Source of the DNA: an uncultured Gemmatimonadota bacterium
GTDB lineage: Bacteria; Gemmatimonadota; Gemmatimonadetes; Gemmatimonadales; Gemmatimonadaceae
Direction: 5' to 3'
Length of the DNA stretch: 64,000 nucleotides
NCBI GenBank assembly: GCA_902826615.1
Contig: CADEFN010000013.1
Coordinates: 1-64,000, forward strand
The translations under genes and the position numbers were made by a program. Position 1 is the first letter of the stretch. Each line of letters starts with the position of its first letter. Below are positions 11,190 through 60,012 of this stretch, in pieces. Under the pieces are notes generated by a model that worked only from the letters and a program-made list of their open reading frames with translations, was not told the origin of the DNA and ran no database searches.

Positions 11190-11446
11190 CCGACCTTCGT
11201 ATGCCCGAAACCACATCGCCCTTCCTCGGATCCTCCGCCCTGCCAGTGGGGCAGGACCCCCAGGTAACCGCCAACGTACCCACGCTCGAAGAGCTCGAGC
11301 GGGTGCACATCCGCTACGTGCTGGAGCGCGTGCGATGGCATCAGGGTCGCGCTGCGGCCGTTCTTGGGATATCGTCCAAGACGCTGTACAGGAAAATCCG
11401 CCAGTACGGCTTTAAGCGACCCCACGGAATCCCAAGCGATAAATGA
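11186..11446 (+). CDS. Free-standing Fis-type helix-turn-helix protein (NtrC C-terminal domain only)
   Basis: 86 residues. The last 50 form an HTH_8 (Fis/NtrC C-terminal) domain with VLERVRWHQGRAAAVLGIS and SSKTLYRKIRQYG. There is no receiver and no AAA+ domain, so it is either a remnant of an NtrC-type regulator or a functional small DNA-binding protein. It overlaps the kinase upstream (ATGA) and the response regulator downstream (ATGA), so all three should be made together in fixed ratio. The N-terminal 30 residues are low in structure and proline-rich. Confidence 0.85.
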   Translation: MTDLRMPETTSPFLGSSALPVGQDPQVTANVPTLEELERVHIRYVLERVRWHQGRAAAVLGISSKTLYRKIRQYGFKRPHGIPSDK

Positions 11447-12108
11447 AGGTTCTGGTCATCGAAGACGACCCCACTGTAGGATCCTTTGTCAAACGAGGTT
11501 TGGAGGAACAGCGGTGGGGAGTGTCTCTGGTGACCGACGGCGAGGAGGGTGAGCGCGCCGCGCTCCAGGAGCCCTTCGATGTCGTGATTCTCGATATGCG
11601 CCTCCCCGGGAAGTCCGGGTTGGAGGTGCTCTCGTCCCTGCGGGCAGGGGGCTATGAAAAGCCCGTGCTGATTCTGACGGCGCAGGACGCGGTGGACGCC
11701 AAGGTGTCGACGCTCAGGGCCGGAGCGGACGACTACGTGACCAAGCCCTTCGCCTTCGAGGAACTGCTCGCCCGGGTTGAGGCTCTTGCCCGCCGCCCCC
11801 GAGCGCTGGTCAGCCCGGTCCTCAGGGTTGCCGACCTCGAAGTGAACCGCGACACGCGAGAAGTTACGCGAGCTGGTGAGCCTATCGAGTTGACACCAAA
11901 GGAGTTCGCCGTCCTCGAGTATCTCATCCGTCATGCGGGTCGGGTGATGAGCCGAACGCTGATCACCGAGTACGCCTGGGGCTACCACTTCGACCCCGGA
12001 ACGAACATCGTGGATGTGGTCATCAACCATCTGCGCAAAAAGATCGACGCCAAGCACGCACGAAAGCTGATCACAACGGTTCGCGGGGTTGGTTACGTCG
12101 TGAAGTAA
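11443..12108 (+). CDS. OmpR/PhoB-family response regulator
   Basis: 221 residues, standard length. The receiver has the acidic pair Asp8/Asp9, the phosphorylation site Asp51 in VVILDMRLPG, Thr79 and Lys101 (VTKPF). The winged-helix domain covers about 125-221 with LTPKEFAVLEYL and the C-terminal TTVRGVGYVVK. It follows a NtrB-like kinase and precedes a membrane kinase. By family logic the membrane kinase at 12173 is the better partner, while sharing with the upstream kinase is possible. Confidence 0.95.
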   Translation: MKVLVIEDDPTVGSFVKRGLEEQRWGVSLVTDGEEGERAALQEPFDVVILDMRLPGKSGLEVLSSLRAGGYEKPVLILTAQDAVDAKVSTLRAGADDYVTKPFAFEELLARVEALARRPRALVSPVLRVADLEVNRDTREVTRAGEPIELTPKEFAVLEYLIRHAGRVMSRTLITEYAWGYHFDPGTNIVDVVINHLRKKIDAKHARKLITTVRGVGYVVK

Positions 12109-12132
12109 GCGGGGTAGAGCCTTAGGCTTTGG

Positions 12133-12168
12133 TCGTGCTTCACGTGCCTCTCGTACTTCCCGTGCTTC
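12133..12168 (-). repeat. Four tandem copies of a 9-bp unit (GAAGCACGN), copy A
   Basis: Read on the minus strand the four units are gaagcacgg, gaagtacga, gaggcacgt and gaagcacga, exactly 36 bp. They fill most of the 64-nt gap between the response regulator and the histidine kinase and end 4 nt before the kinase start codon. A second 36-bp array with identical first and last units is at 58842-58877. Confidence 0.85.
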
Positions 12169-12172
12169 CCCC

Positions 12173-13693
12173 ATGTCCTCCATCCGCACCCGCATTGCCA
12201 ACCGATTCGCCCTCCTGGTCCTGACGGCGGTCGCGATTTTTGCGGGCACTGTGTATGCGGCCAGGAGATCGGGGGCATACGCGGAGCTCGAGCGGCATGG
12301 GCGAACGCGTGCGACAACGGCTCTTCAGCTCATGGGGCAGGCCGGCGCGTCGCAGTTCACGGTAGGCGAGGGAGTGTCCAAGACCGGCTTTCTGCGTCCG
12401 GCGCTCGATGCCATCCCCGGGTATGTGGCCGTCTATACCAGTGGCGGGGACCTCGAGTACAGCTCCCCTTCCGTGCGTGCCCTCTCGTCGTTTCTGCCGG
12501 AAGGGGCAGTCGTTGAATCGGCTCGCGGCGAATACGAGGCCTTTGATGCGTTCATGCGGGAAGCGCGCAGGACCGGCAAATCGGTGCGTTTTGCCCTGCG
12601 CAGTGATGCAGGGGTGATGGTCGCCCTCCGCGACCCCTCGGGGCGTGAGGTAGTGGTCGGCGTCTCGCAGAAAGAGGTCAACACGTCCGGGCGCGAGATA
12701 CTGGGCAGTGCCCTCGTGGCGCTCCCATTCATTGTGCTTCTCGCCGTCATGGGCGCCTACCTCCTCGCGGGGAACGTCCTCGCGCCCGTCGACCGCATTC
12801 GTGAGGAGGTCGAGGCCATCACCGACGGCAAGAGTCTGCATCGACGCGTGAACGTCCAGGGGGACGACGAGATGTCGCGCCTGACGACCACGCTCAATGC
12901 GATGATCGGGCGGCTGGAGACCTCCTTTGCCGGGCTGCGACGCTTTACCGCCGACGCCAGTCACGAGCTCAAGACACCGCTCACGGTGCTGCGCGCCGAC
13001 GTCGAGCGAGCGATGCATGCACAAACAAACTCAACGGAGCAGTTGGTGGCACTGGAGGAGGCGCTGCAGGAAACCGCGCGTATGTCGGCACTGGTGGACG
13101 CCTTGCTCACGCTGGCGCGTGCCGACGAAGGGCGATTCGATCTCTTTCGCGAGCCCGTGGACCTGCAGGCGATTGCCCGGGAGGTGTACGAAACCGGGCT
13201 CATTCTGGGAGAGCCCCGGGCGCACAAGGTGACCATGCCTCACGCGGAGCCCGCGATGGTCCTGGGGGATCCCATGCGCCTCCGTCAGCTGTTCATGAAC
13301 CTCGTGGAGAACGCCATCAAGTACACGCCCAAGGGTGGGCCGGTGCAGCTGAGCCTGACCGTGACGGGCGAGAGCGCGGTGTTCGCGGTCAAGGACGGAG
13401 GGATCGGGATTTCCGCCGCCGACCTTCCTCACATTTTCGAGAGGTTCTGGCGCGCGGACCGGGCACGCAGTCGTGTGGCGGAACGTTCGGGCAACGGTCT
13501 GGGGTTGGCCATTTGCCAGTGGATTGCACAGGCCCACGGTGGCAGCCTCACCGTGACATCGCGACTGCATCGCGGGAGTACGTTTTCCGCAGAGTTCCCC
13601 TTGGCGCATGTCGAGCCCGTTGTCGAGAAGGTTCCCTCTGGTGATGGGGAGATTTCGCGGGACGTCGCTTCGGCCCAAGGCCGGCTGGCCTGA
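12173..13693 (+). CDS. Membrane sensor histidine kinase (HAMP-HisKA-HATPase)
   Basis: 506 residues. Membrane segments near 12-31 and 180-200 bracket a periplasmic sensor of about 145 residues. HAMP follows (about 200-255), then the phosphoacceptor His264 in DASHELKTPL, and the ATPase domain with VENAIKYTP, DGGIGISAADLPHIFERFWR and NGLGLAICQWIA. The start ATG has no Shine-Dalgarno sequence; the 36-bp repeat array sits directly in front of it. It probably phosphorylates the OmpR-type regulator encoded 64 nt upstream. Confidence 0.93.
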   Translation: MSSIRTRIANRFALLVLTAVAIFAGTVYAARRSGAYAELERHGRTRATTALQLMGQAGASQFTVGEGVSKTGFLRPALDAIPGYVAVYTSGGDLEYSSPSVRALSSFLPEGAVVESARGEYEAFDAFMREARRTGKSVRFALRSDAGVMVALRDPSGREVVVGVSQKEVNTSGREILGSALVALPFIVLLAVMGAYLLAGNVLAPVDRIREEVEAITDGKSLHRRVNVQGDDEMSRLTTTLNAMIGRLETSFAGLRRFTADASHELKTPLTVLRADVERAMHAQTNSTEQLVALEEALQETARMSALVDALLTLARADEGRFDLFREPVDLQAIAREVYETGLILGEPRAHKVTMPHAEPAMVLGDPMRLRQLFMNLVENAIKYTPKGGPVQLSLTVTGESAVFAVKDGGIGISAADLPHIFERFWRADRARSRVAERSGNGLGLAICQWIAQAHGGSLTVTSRLHRGSTFSAEFPLAHVEPVVEKVPSGDGEISRDVASAQGRLA

Positions 13694-45984: not shown

Positions 45985-46068
45985 TGCCGAAGGGGGGACT
46001 CGAACCCCCACGGGCTGTCGCCCACTGCACCCTGAATGCAGCGCGTCTACCAGTTCCACCACTTCGGC
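45985..46068 (-). tRNA. tRNA-Leu (anticodon CAG)
   Basis: Read on the minus strand: acceptor GCCGAAG pairs with CUUCGGC and is followed by discriminator A. The anticodon stem CUGCA/UGCAG encloses UUCAGGG with anticodon CAG, a long variable arm follows as in class II tRNAs, and the T-loop GUUCGAG is present. CCA is not encoded. 84 nt. Confidence 0.95.
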
Positions 46069-57222: not shown

Positions 57223-57803
57223 GTGCCATCGTGCATGCCTCGGCTTTTGTGGATGAAGGAGCCGTGATCGGGGAGGGCACCAGGATCTGGCACTTCTGTC
57301 ACGTGATGCCCGGCGCCGTCATCGGTGCCGGGTGCAGCCTGGGACAGAACGTGGTGGTCATGCCGGGCACGCGGATCGGCAACAATGTGAAGATCCAGAA
57401 CAATGTCTCGGTGTACGAAGGCGTCGAACTCGAAGACGACGTCTTTTGTGGACCGTCCATGGTCTTCACCAACGTGATCAATCCGCGTAGTCATGTGTCG
57501 CGGAAGCATGAGTACCAGCGCACACTCGTCAGGCGCGGCGCCACGATTGGCGCCAACGCGACAGTTGTGTGCGGCGTGGAACTCGGCGCCTACTGTTTTG
57601 TGGGAGCAGGTGCCGTCGTGGCCAAGGACGTCAAGGCATACGCGCTCATGGTCGGCGTTCCGGCTCGGCAGTTGGGCTGGGTGTGCCAGTGCGGTGAGCG
57701 GCTGCCGGAGACGGCAGAGGCGGTGGCGCGACTGACATGTGGAAGCTGTGGGTCCGTGTATCAGCTGGACGGTGGGGTGCTCACACCCAATGGTGAACGA
57801 TGA
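57219..57803 (+). CDS. Hexapeptide-repeat sugar N-acetyltransferase (WbpD/WlbB type) with C-terminal zinc ribbon
   Basis: 194 residues from ATG 57219 (ATGA overlap with carB). Left-handed beta-helix repeats run from about 10 to 150 ([36 protein letters not shown]). The C-terminal 40 residues hold two Cys pairs (CQCGERL, CGSCGS) that may bind zinc. In the WbpABDE pathway this enzyme N-acetylates a UDP-3-amino sugar acid. The gene overlaps the following oxidoreductase by 4 nt. Confidence 0.88.
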
Positions 57804-58837
57804 GCCGTTTCCGGATTGCCCTGGCTGGCTGTGGTCGGATCAGCAAGAATCATTTCGATGCCATCGCCAAGATCGAAGATCTCGAGCTCGTGGGTGTCTG
57901 TGACACCGTGGAAGCGCGGGCGAAGGAGGCGGCCGAACGATACGATGTGCCGTGGTTCACCTCGTGGCACAAACTGCTCGAAACGGTTCCGTGTGAGCTG
58001 GCGGCAATCTGCACGCCGTCGGGGCTGCATCCCCAGCATGGGGTGATGGCCGCTCGTGCGGTCAAACATGTCATCTGCGAAAAGCCGATGGCGATCTCGC
58101 TGACCACGGCCGATGAGCTGGTGCAGGCGGCCGACGACGCTGGCGTACACCTGTTTGTCGTCAAGCAGAATCGGCTCAACCCTCCCATTCAGCTCCTGAA
58201 ACGTGCGCTGGACAAGGGGCGGTTCGGGCGGCTGTACATGGCCAACACCACCGTGCGGTGGACACGCCCGCAGGAGTACTACGATCAGGCGCCCTGGCGC
58301 GGCACCTGGGAGTTTGACGGTGGCGCCTTCATGAACCAGGCCTCCCACTATGTCGACCTGATTCAGTGGCTGGTGGGTCCGGTCGAGTCGGTGATGGCCC
58401 GCACGGCCACACTGGCGCGCCGCATCGAAACCGAAGATTCGGGCATCGCGATCCTCAAGTTCCGCAACGGTGCGCTCGGCGCGATCGAAGTGACCATGCT
58501 CACCTATCCACGGAACCTCGAGGGCTCGATCACCATTCTCGGGGAGACGGGGAGCGTGAAGATCGGTGGCACGGCCGTGAACCGCGTGGAGACGTGGCAG
58601 TTCGCCGACTACGATGACGACGACAAGGTGATCGAGCAGGTGAACTACACGCCGCCTAACGTGTACGGCAACGGGCACGAACAGTACTATCGCAATGTGC
58701 TGGCCGTGCTGCGCGGCGAAGCGCAACCGGACACCGACGGGAGGGCGGGGCGGAAGTCGCTCGAGCTGATCCTCGGGATTTACGAGTCGGCCAAGACCGG
58801 TCGTGAAGTGCCGCTGCCGTTGCGGGCGAAGGTTTAG
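57800..58837 (+). CDS. Gfo/Idh/MocA sugar oxidoreductase (WbpB/WlbA type)
   Basis: 345 residues. Rossmann fold start [18 protein letters not shown], the EKP motif in [10 protein letters not shown], and HxxD-type catalytic residues in [15 protein letters not shown]. By context it oxidises C3 of UDP-GlcNAc-uronic acid to a 3-keto sugar for the aminotransferase that follows. A 36-bp repeat array lies between these two genes. It contains one octamer read as Pro-Asn. Confidence 0.88.
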
Positions 58838-58841
58838 GGCA

Positions 58842-58877
58842 GAAGCACGGGAAGTACGCGAAGCATGAGAAGCACGA
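58842..58877 (+). repeat. Four tandem copies of a 9-bp unit (GAAGCACGN), copy B
   Basis: Units: gaagcacgg, gaagtacgc, gaagcatga, gaagcacga. The array begins 4 nt after the stop of the oxidoreductase gene and ends 22 nt before the aminotransferase start. First and last units equal those of the array at 12133-12168, which is in reverse orientation. Confidence 0.85.
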
Positions 58878-58899
58878 CCTGAATCTCCCTCACACATAT

Positions 58900-60012
58900 A
58901 TGCCGGTACCTCTTCTCGATCTCAGGGCGCAACACGCGACCATCCGCGATGACGTCGTCAAAGCCATGCTGCAGGTGGTCGACGATCAGGCGTTCATTCT
59001 CGGTGAGCCAGTTGAACGGCTCGAACGGATGGTGGCAGAGCTGTGCGAAACACGGCACGCGATCGGGTGCGCCAACGGGACCGATGCCATTCTGCTGGCC
59101 ATGCGGGCCCTCGACATCGGGCGCGGTGATGAGGTGATTTGCCCGCCGTTCACGTTCTTTGCCACAGCAGGCACCATCCACAACGTTGGTGCGACACCGG
59201 TCTTCGTCGACATCGAACCCGACACCTTCAACATTTCCCCGACGGCGGCCGCGGCGGCGCGCACCAGCCGTACCAAGGCGGTGATTCCTGTCGATCTCTT
59301 TGGTCAGATGGCTGCCATCGAGCGCGTGGCCGAGGCGCTGCCCGGTCTGCCCGTGATCGAGGATGCTGCCCAGTCGATTGGGGCCAGTCGAACCATCGGA
59401 GGGAAGAAGGTCATGGCCGGGGCCGGGGTGACCATCGGTACCTTCTCGTTTTTCCCGTCGAAGAACCTCGGCGCCTACGGGGACGGTGGAATGATGGTGA
59501 CGCAGGACGAGGCCATTGCCACAAGGCTCAAGCGGCTGCGGGTCCATGGCGGGGCCAAGACCTACTACCACGATGAGGTCGGTTTCAACTCCCGGCTGGA
59601 TGCCCTGCAGGCGGCGGTGCTCGCGGCCAAACTGCCGCACCTGTCGCATTGGAGCGCCGGACGCAGGGCCAATGCCGCGTACTATTCGTCCAACCTGGCT
59701 GATGTTCCGGAGGTGCGGACTCCGGTCGTGGACCCGGCCAACGAGTCGATCTTCAACCAATACACCCTTCGCGTCGAGCGCCGGGACGACCTCCAGGCCT
59801 TTTTGAAGGCCAAGGGGATCGGTTCTTCTGTCTATTATCCCTTACCGCTGCACTTGCAGCCCTGTTTTGCCTACCTCGGCTACCAGGCGGGGCAGTTCCC
59901 GGAGAGCGAAAAGGCTTCGGGGGAGGTCATCTCCCTCCCCATCTACCCCGAACTCACCTCGGCCCAGCTCGACGAAGTAATAGGCACGGTTCGTGCCTTC
60001 TACGGCCGTTGA
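58900..60012 (+). CDS. DegT/DnrJ/EryC1 aminotransferase (WbpE/WlbC type)
   Basis: 370 residues. PLP lysine Lys188 in FFPSKNLGAYGDGG; other marks are CANGTDAILLAMRAL, VIEDAAQSIGA and QYTLRVERRDDLQAFLKAKG. It transfers an amino group to the 3-keto group of a UDP-sugar acid in the WbpABDE scheme. Spacing of 62 nt from the previous gene contrasts with the tight junctions around it. No strong ribosome-binding site is seen. Confidence 0.9.
   Translation: MPVPLLDLRAQHATIRDDVVKAMLQVVDDQAFILGEPVERLERMVAELCETRHAIGCANGTDAILLAMRALDIGRGDEVICPPFTFFATAGTIHNVGATPVFVDIEPDTFNISPTAAAAARTSRTKAVIPVDLFGQMAAIERVAEALPGLPVIEDAAQSIGASRTIGGKKVMAGAGVTIGTFSFFPSKNLGAYGDGGMMVTQDEAIATRLKRLRVHGGAKTYYHDEVGFNSRLDALQAAVLAAKLPHLSHWSAGRRANAAYYSSNLADVPEVRTPVVDPANESIFNQYTLRVERRDDLQAFLKAKGIGSSVYYPLPLHLQPCFAYLGYQAGQFPESEKASGEVISLPIYPELTSAQLDEVIGTVRAFYGR

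Follow-up and report, generated by a model that had tools for sequence, protein, structure and literature searches.

Gene-edge arrays of a 9-bp repeat and their facing pairs in Gemmatimonadaceae genomes

The array of four 9-bp units that precedes a histidine kinase gene in a Gemmatimonadaceae genome is real, lies far above chance and is part of a dispersed intergenic family. It was found in a stretch of 64,000 nucleotides (the window) from contig 13 of a 5.9 Mb assembly (G000). We tentatively read the family as a spreading repeat, the paired form of which would act as a bidirectional transcript-end hairpin, a function predicted from sequence.

Two arrays in the window and the family they belong to

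The window holds two arrays, copies A and B, with the following features (the basis of each assignment is given in brackets).

11443–12108, plus strand: response regulator gene (Response_reg and Trans_reg_C domains)
12109–12172, strand not applicable: 64-bp gap with copy A, from the response regulator stop to the histidine kinase start (sequence, folding)
12134–12168, minus strand: array copy A, four 9-bp units (sequence, pattern search, TRF)
12169–12172, minus strand: G-rich leader of copy A (GGGG on this strand), between the histidine kinase start codon and the outer unit (sequence, leader across arrays)
12173–13693, plus strand: histidine kinase gene (HAMP, HisKA and HATPase_c domains)
57800–58837, plus strand: Gfo/Idh/MocA oxidoreductase gene, upstream of copy B (annotation)
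58835–58841, plus strand: TAG stop (58835–58837) and leader GGCA, directly ahead of copy B (sequence, leader consensus)
58838–58899, strand not applicable: 62-bp gap with copy B (folding, ortholog comparison)
58842–58876, plus strand: array copy B, four 9-bp units (sequence, pattern search, TRF)
58900–60012, plus strand: DegT/DnrJ/EryC1/StrS aminotransferase gene, downstream of copy B (annotation)

Read from the histidine kinase side, copy A consists of GAAGCACG-G-GAAGTACG-A-GAGGCACG-T-GAAGCACG, followed by CCCC and the ATG at 12173; position 12133 is a spacer base, and the array is antisense to the kinase gene, whose ATG is 4 nt away. Copy B, GAAGCACG-G-GAAGTACG-C-GAAGCATG-A-GAAGCACG, begins 4 nt past the TAG of the oxidoreductase gene. 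The preliminary description had placed four 9-bp units ahead of the kinase start and a second array in the opposite orientation at 58842, with identical outer units, and both arrays are present as described, the outer units (GAAGCACG) being the same in the two copies and the inner units different. Its shorthand of four GAAGCACGN units is exact for two of the four units in each copy, while the inner units vary. As it had also stated, no Shine-Dalgarno sequence is visible at the kinase start; this absence is not due to the array, because the orthologous start in an array-free species (L172) has no obvious one either. Both copies were detected by TRF, and matches to two adjacent units (≤2 mismatches) numbered 6 in the window versus 0.07 expected, with at most one in each of 100 shuffles. 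No curated Rfam family matched the arrays in a search of the window, in which a tRNA gene at 45985–46068 on the minus strand was the sole match.

Across the G000 genome, adjacent pairs of GARGCACG units occur ~330 times, versus 2 in reversed-pattern controls (125, 124 and 81 matches for three disjoint two-unit patterns; 2, 0 and 0 for their reversals), and well over a hundred array copies are present. This bears out the dispersed intergenic element family that had been suggested from the two window copies. The proposed check for further copies and for their frequency in coding sequence found the copies, and only 2 of 26 arrays lay wholly within predicted coding sequence on an unbiased contig with 89% of its bases coding. 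The consensus is GARGCACG followed by a spacer base, which was G or A at 336 of 351 junctions (A at 140, 40%), so that the unit is 9 bp long (GARGCACGN) and is not the GGGAATC heptamer. Among 118 arrays read in context, which were gathered by patterns except for those from C4 and the window, 71 had four units, within a range of 2–9; the suggested fixed copy number therefore stands as a clear mode, with a spread around it. One array (C1:1053512) consists of nine GAAGTACG-type units, an instance of local homogenisation.

Other arrangements were also seen. At C1:719943–720031 (L128), GCTGGCACG-type and GAGGCACG units alternate in a higher-order array, giving an 18-bp period. A second G000 family has a 7-bp unit, GGCAGAY, and occurs at C4 positions 58771, 171778, 199228, 204729, 259779, 263094 and 380946 (stretches L083, L089, L090, L091, L093, L094 and L100); the same heptamer adjoins a 9-bp array in G004 (L259).

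Placement at gene edges and facing pairs

The preliminary description overlooked the orientation of the arrays to genes, their anchoring to stop codons, the facing pairs, the unit families of sister species and a parallel in Xanthomonas. Gene calls came from a codon-usage script; their stops are reliable, some of their starts are not. The GARGCACG strand points from the gene edge inward to the gap, and in 624 kb sampled regardless of arrays none of 24 array-bearing gap edges was reversed. At stop codons, the outer unit starts exactly 5 nt past the stop in 33 arrays, with a leader, GGGGCR, between the two and C at position −2 in 33/33; GGGG or GGGC immediately past the stop was found in only 2 of 193 background gaps. 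On the start-codon side, the antisense array lies mostly 4–10 nt upstream (about 7 nt). Arrays were commoner at gene ends than at gene starts (16/219 versus 8/289, p = 0.02). Gaps with arrays comprised 46 tandem, 21 convergent and 2 divergent cases, versus 175, 22 and 57, respectively, among background gaps of at least 40 bp. Judged by eye, arrays also lie directly past the apparent 3′ ends of tRNAs (C1:204655 and C3:373603). An exception to the orientation rule was seen in G003 (L182, 5990–6101), where the GAAGCACG arm follows the C-rich arm. In G001 and G004, arrays that do not adjoin a stop codon have the same kind of leader (CAGGGC, AAGGGC).

Seven gaps had an array at each edge, versus 0.53 expected (13 times chance, p = 1.8 × 10^−8). 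The commonest joint form is a leader of the YAGGG(G)CR type with (GARGCACGN)4 facing its reverse complement, together filling the gap. Modelled as RNA, paired arrays folded much more stably than shuffled sequence (z −8 to −13), and inverted-repeat scores of at least 40 were reached by 6 gaps in G000, none in G002 and 8 in G003, with none in shuffles. This inverted-pair hairpin feature is absent for both window copies (z −0.99 to 0.61). The copy A gap has no partner array and its single strands were not clearly above shuffles on folding (z −0.99 and 0.28); the copy B gap likewise has no partner and folded no better than shuffles (z 0.61 and 0.21). Unpaired arrays, both window copies included, look like half elements. 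Pairs possess a GC-rich stem, and no U-tract of the kind found at intrinsic terminators follows the stems in the array flanks. Covariation between arms was sought in two versions of a test and found in neither: arms within a pair were no more alike than arms across pairs (mean rank 0.49, p = 0.43). Selection for pairing is therefore not supported by covariation.

Under the hairpin reading, transcription of a pair from either side would yield a stem of ~36 bp a few nt past the stop codon, and this stem could serve as a bidirectional terminator or as a 3′-end shield between neighbouring genes. Single copies would have lost the transcript-end role or would act weakly. Whole arrays would be copied, and the unit sequence would be homogenised within each species.

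The four-unit mode and the inward-facing G-rich strand would also be expected if the arrays were G-quadruplex elements, as proposed for the Xanthomonas GGGAATC repeats, with four units supplying four G-tracts. Of 105 arrays taken with their leader, 21 had four G3 tracts separated by loops of at most 9. The other 84 arrays are incapable of forming such a quadruplex, since A occupies 40% of the junctions, yet the family keeps its four-unit mode and its placement. As a general cause, quadruplex formation is therefore very improbable and was rejected.

Orthologous gaps in sister species

Relatives were compared as draft genomes (74–100% complete). Across 179 Gemmatimonadaceae genomes, the strict three-unit pattern occurred 133 times in G000, 30 times in G003, and once and twice in two others; a general scan of genome contigs gave mostly single matches, in Streptomyces and other unrelated genomes, and many in one Gemmatimonadaceae MAG. 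A GCRGCACG-type middle unit was found 19 times in G004, 7 times in G001 and 5 times in G003, but not in G000 or G002. Of the five species examined in the genus, four have the family, and the unit variants differ from species to species; 400 kb of G002 contained no intergenic arrays of this sort with units of 7–9 bp. Further intergenic families with 7-, 8- and 9-bp units (CTAGTCCG, GTGATTC, GGGTGAGC, GATGGACGG and GGGCGGGCAGGC types), frequently arranged in inverted pairs, were seen in G003 (L188, L192, L198, L187, L186 and L182). The rule that the G-rich strand faces inward was kept in 29 of 37 cases among these further G003 families.

An ordered block starting GAATYACG-GAATCACG-GCRGYACG recurs 46 times in G003 (≤1 mismatch) and is absent from the other four species; copying involves blocks, not single units. 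This bears on the idea that chance 9-mers expanded independently by slippage at each site, which was already disfavoured. Local homogenisation in some arrays, such as the nine-unit array above, and a single CGTGCTTC contained in one array-free ortholog would fit it, but one unit and leader at more than 100 sites and the 46-fold G003 block demand dispersal. We regard such slippage as scarcely credible, and as the origin of the family it is ruled out, because a single unit and leader, and entire blocks, are dispersed.

Array presence and content vary between species at orthologous gaps; most G003 contigs were chosen for carrying arrays, which biases any comparison of gap sharing between species. 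For copy B, the orthologous gap has no array in G002 or G004, and G003 has two five-unit arrays there as a pair. For copy A, the corresponding response regulator–histidine kinase gap has no array in G002; its G003 counterpart (L171, 1358–1497, minus strand) contains a facing pair made of another 9-bp unit, TRGGGCGTN, and the stop codon is overlapped by the first of these units. That this gap has an array in two species, with different units, could point to a local operon regulator, an operator or attenuator that, for example, uncouples kinase translation from that of the response regulator, and unpaired copies could still be bound by a protein. However, the genes flanking copies A and B are functionally unrelated, arrays also follow tRNA-like 3′ ends, and the G002 gap has none. 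We consider local regulation quite unlikely.

At seven array-bearing gene ends in G000, copy B included, none of the seven G002 orthologs has an array. The protein ends are identical and C-terminal length is kept at all seven, while the stop codon differs at six; where G002 has TGA, G000 has TAG in 4/4 cases, versus 7/49 among genes without arrays. At C4:344694, a gap of ~96 bp with a pair in G000 corresponds to 14 bp in G002. The kept lengths, the differing stops and the TGA-to-TAG changes, together with the CAGGGC and AAGGGC leaders ahead of stop-distant arrays in G001 and G004, hint that the element carries its own stop, its leader TAGGGGC landing in frame at a gene end so that the stop is rewritten and protein length unchanged. 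This is an unlikely reading on present numbers; a copying mechanism would then target gene termini in the genus, which is improbable to the same degree.

Stem-loops were also found at array-free orthologs. An ordinary stem-loop occupies the same place in the G002 ortholog of C4:359354 (z −4.4), and the orthologs of C4:352765 have stem-loops in G004 (z −2.5) and G002 (z −1.8), a comparison that comprises three sequences, the last of them weak, within small ortholog numbers.

Family size, intergenic bias, orientation, pairs, stop anchoring, gap classes, the excess of arrays at gene ends over starts, pair folding, ortholog stem-loops and block copying all support the hairpin reading. The absence of arm covariation, the many unpaired arrays, the shuffle-like folding of both window copies, the missing U-tract, the array-free G002 gaps and the small size of the stem-loop comparison count against it. 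Almost as probable is that the arrays are a dispersed repeat of a neutral or selfish sort (MITE-, REPIN- or MIRU-like) without host function, for which insertion at gene edges is tolerated or targeted; the hairpins and the stop anchoring would then be by-products. Differences in array presence at the same gaps in sister species, species-specific unit sequences, arms without covariation and C-terminal lengths kept at 7/7 gene ends, as with harmless insertion, are all consistent with such a repeat. Against it, no Y1/RAYT transposase was found in G000 or G001–G004 and no other mobilising gene was identified, the strict orientation and 5-nt spacing exceed what tolerance alone would give, and different unit families mostly obey one orientation rule.

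Comparison with known repeat systems

A search of one collection of papers returned no publication on intergenic tandem repeats of Gemmatimonas or on the unit sequence, and the arrays were compared with repeats described elsewhere. Heterocystous cyanobacteria possess STRR heptamers, several families of short intergenic tandem repeats per genome, and in this respect they resemble the genomes studied here; we know of no report of gene-edge anchoring or paired orientation for STRR repeats. The MIRU repeats of mycobacteria are intergenic and lie at stop/start junctions, one of them in a two-component operon, but their units are tens of bp long, unlike the 9-bp units in facing arms described here.

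REP/BIME elements are often found at gene 3′ ends. With REPINs and RAYT transposases, they form a system of dispersed extragenic repeats in which inverted pairs form hairpins (PMC3116915). The Gemmatimonadaceae arrays are likewise dispersed, extragenic and hairpin-forming as inverted pairs, but each arm is a tandem array and not a palindrome. The Y1/RAYT transposase domain (PF01797) is absent from G000–G004 and present in other members of the family, so that a RAYT/REP origin was rejected and the REPIN route in its known form is unavailable to G000.

The TAACTGA repeats of Beggiatoaceae and cyanobacteria comprise 169 intergenic sets of 2–6 tandem heptamers, the largest class of which ends 1 nt from a codon; they lie mainly before start codons in one orientation, are almost never inverted and have no predicted folding (PMC4679880). 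Gene-edge anchoring is thus common to both systems, but pairing is not.

The GGGAATC heptamers of Xanthomonas form ~180 arrays per genome, mostly intergenic and with a four-unit mode, for which the function is unknown; 70–75 facing (convergent) pairs occur per genome, the coding strand carries the repeat near stops and the non-coding strand near starts, and few lie in divergent gaps (Rehm et al. 2015, PMC4692102). About half of these arrays are quadruplex-capable, a capacity central to the reading given there, and most sites are common to both species compared; Nostoc has GGGGA(C/T)T repeats (PMC4692102). The Gemmatimonadaceae arrays share the dispersal, the mostly intergenic location, the four-unit mode, the stop-side coding and start-side non-coding strands, the facing pairs and the rarity of divergent gaps. 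They differ in unit length (9 bp), unit sequence and phylum, in that most are quadruplex-incapable (21/105 capable versus about half), in a G-rich leader that often coincides with the stop codon, in the several unit families found together in one sister species, and in array presence per gap, which differs between sister species where the Xanthomonas sites are mostly shared.

The gene-edge, four-unit, facing-pair layout is thereby now seen in another phylum, where the unit differs in length and sequence and most arrays cannot form a quadruplex, which makes the layout separable from the G-quadruplex idea put forward for Xanthomonas. This separation makes the cause testable, as transcript-end hairpins or as targeted spread at gene ends, and sister species that lack arrays, have them or combine several unit families amount to a natural experiment. 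Taken together, the arrays are a variant of the already described Xanthomonas-type layout, with a new unit.
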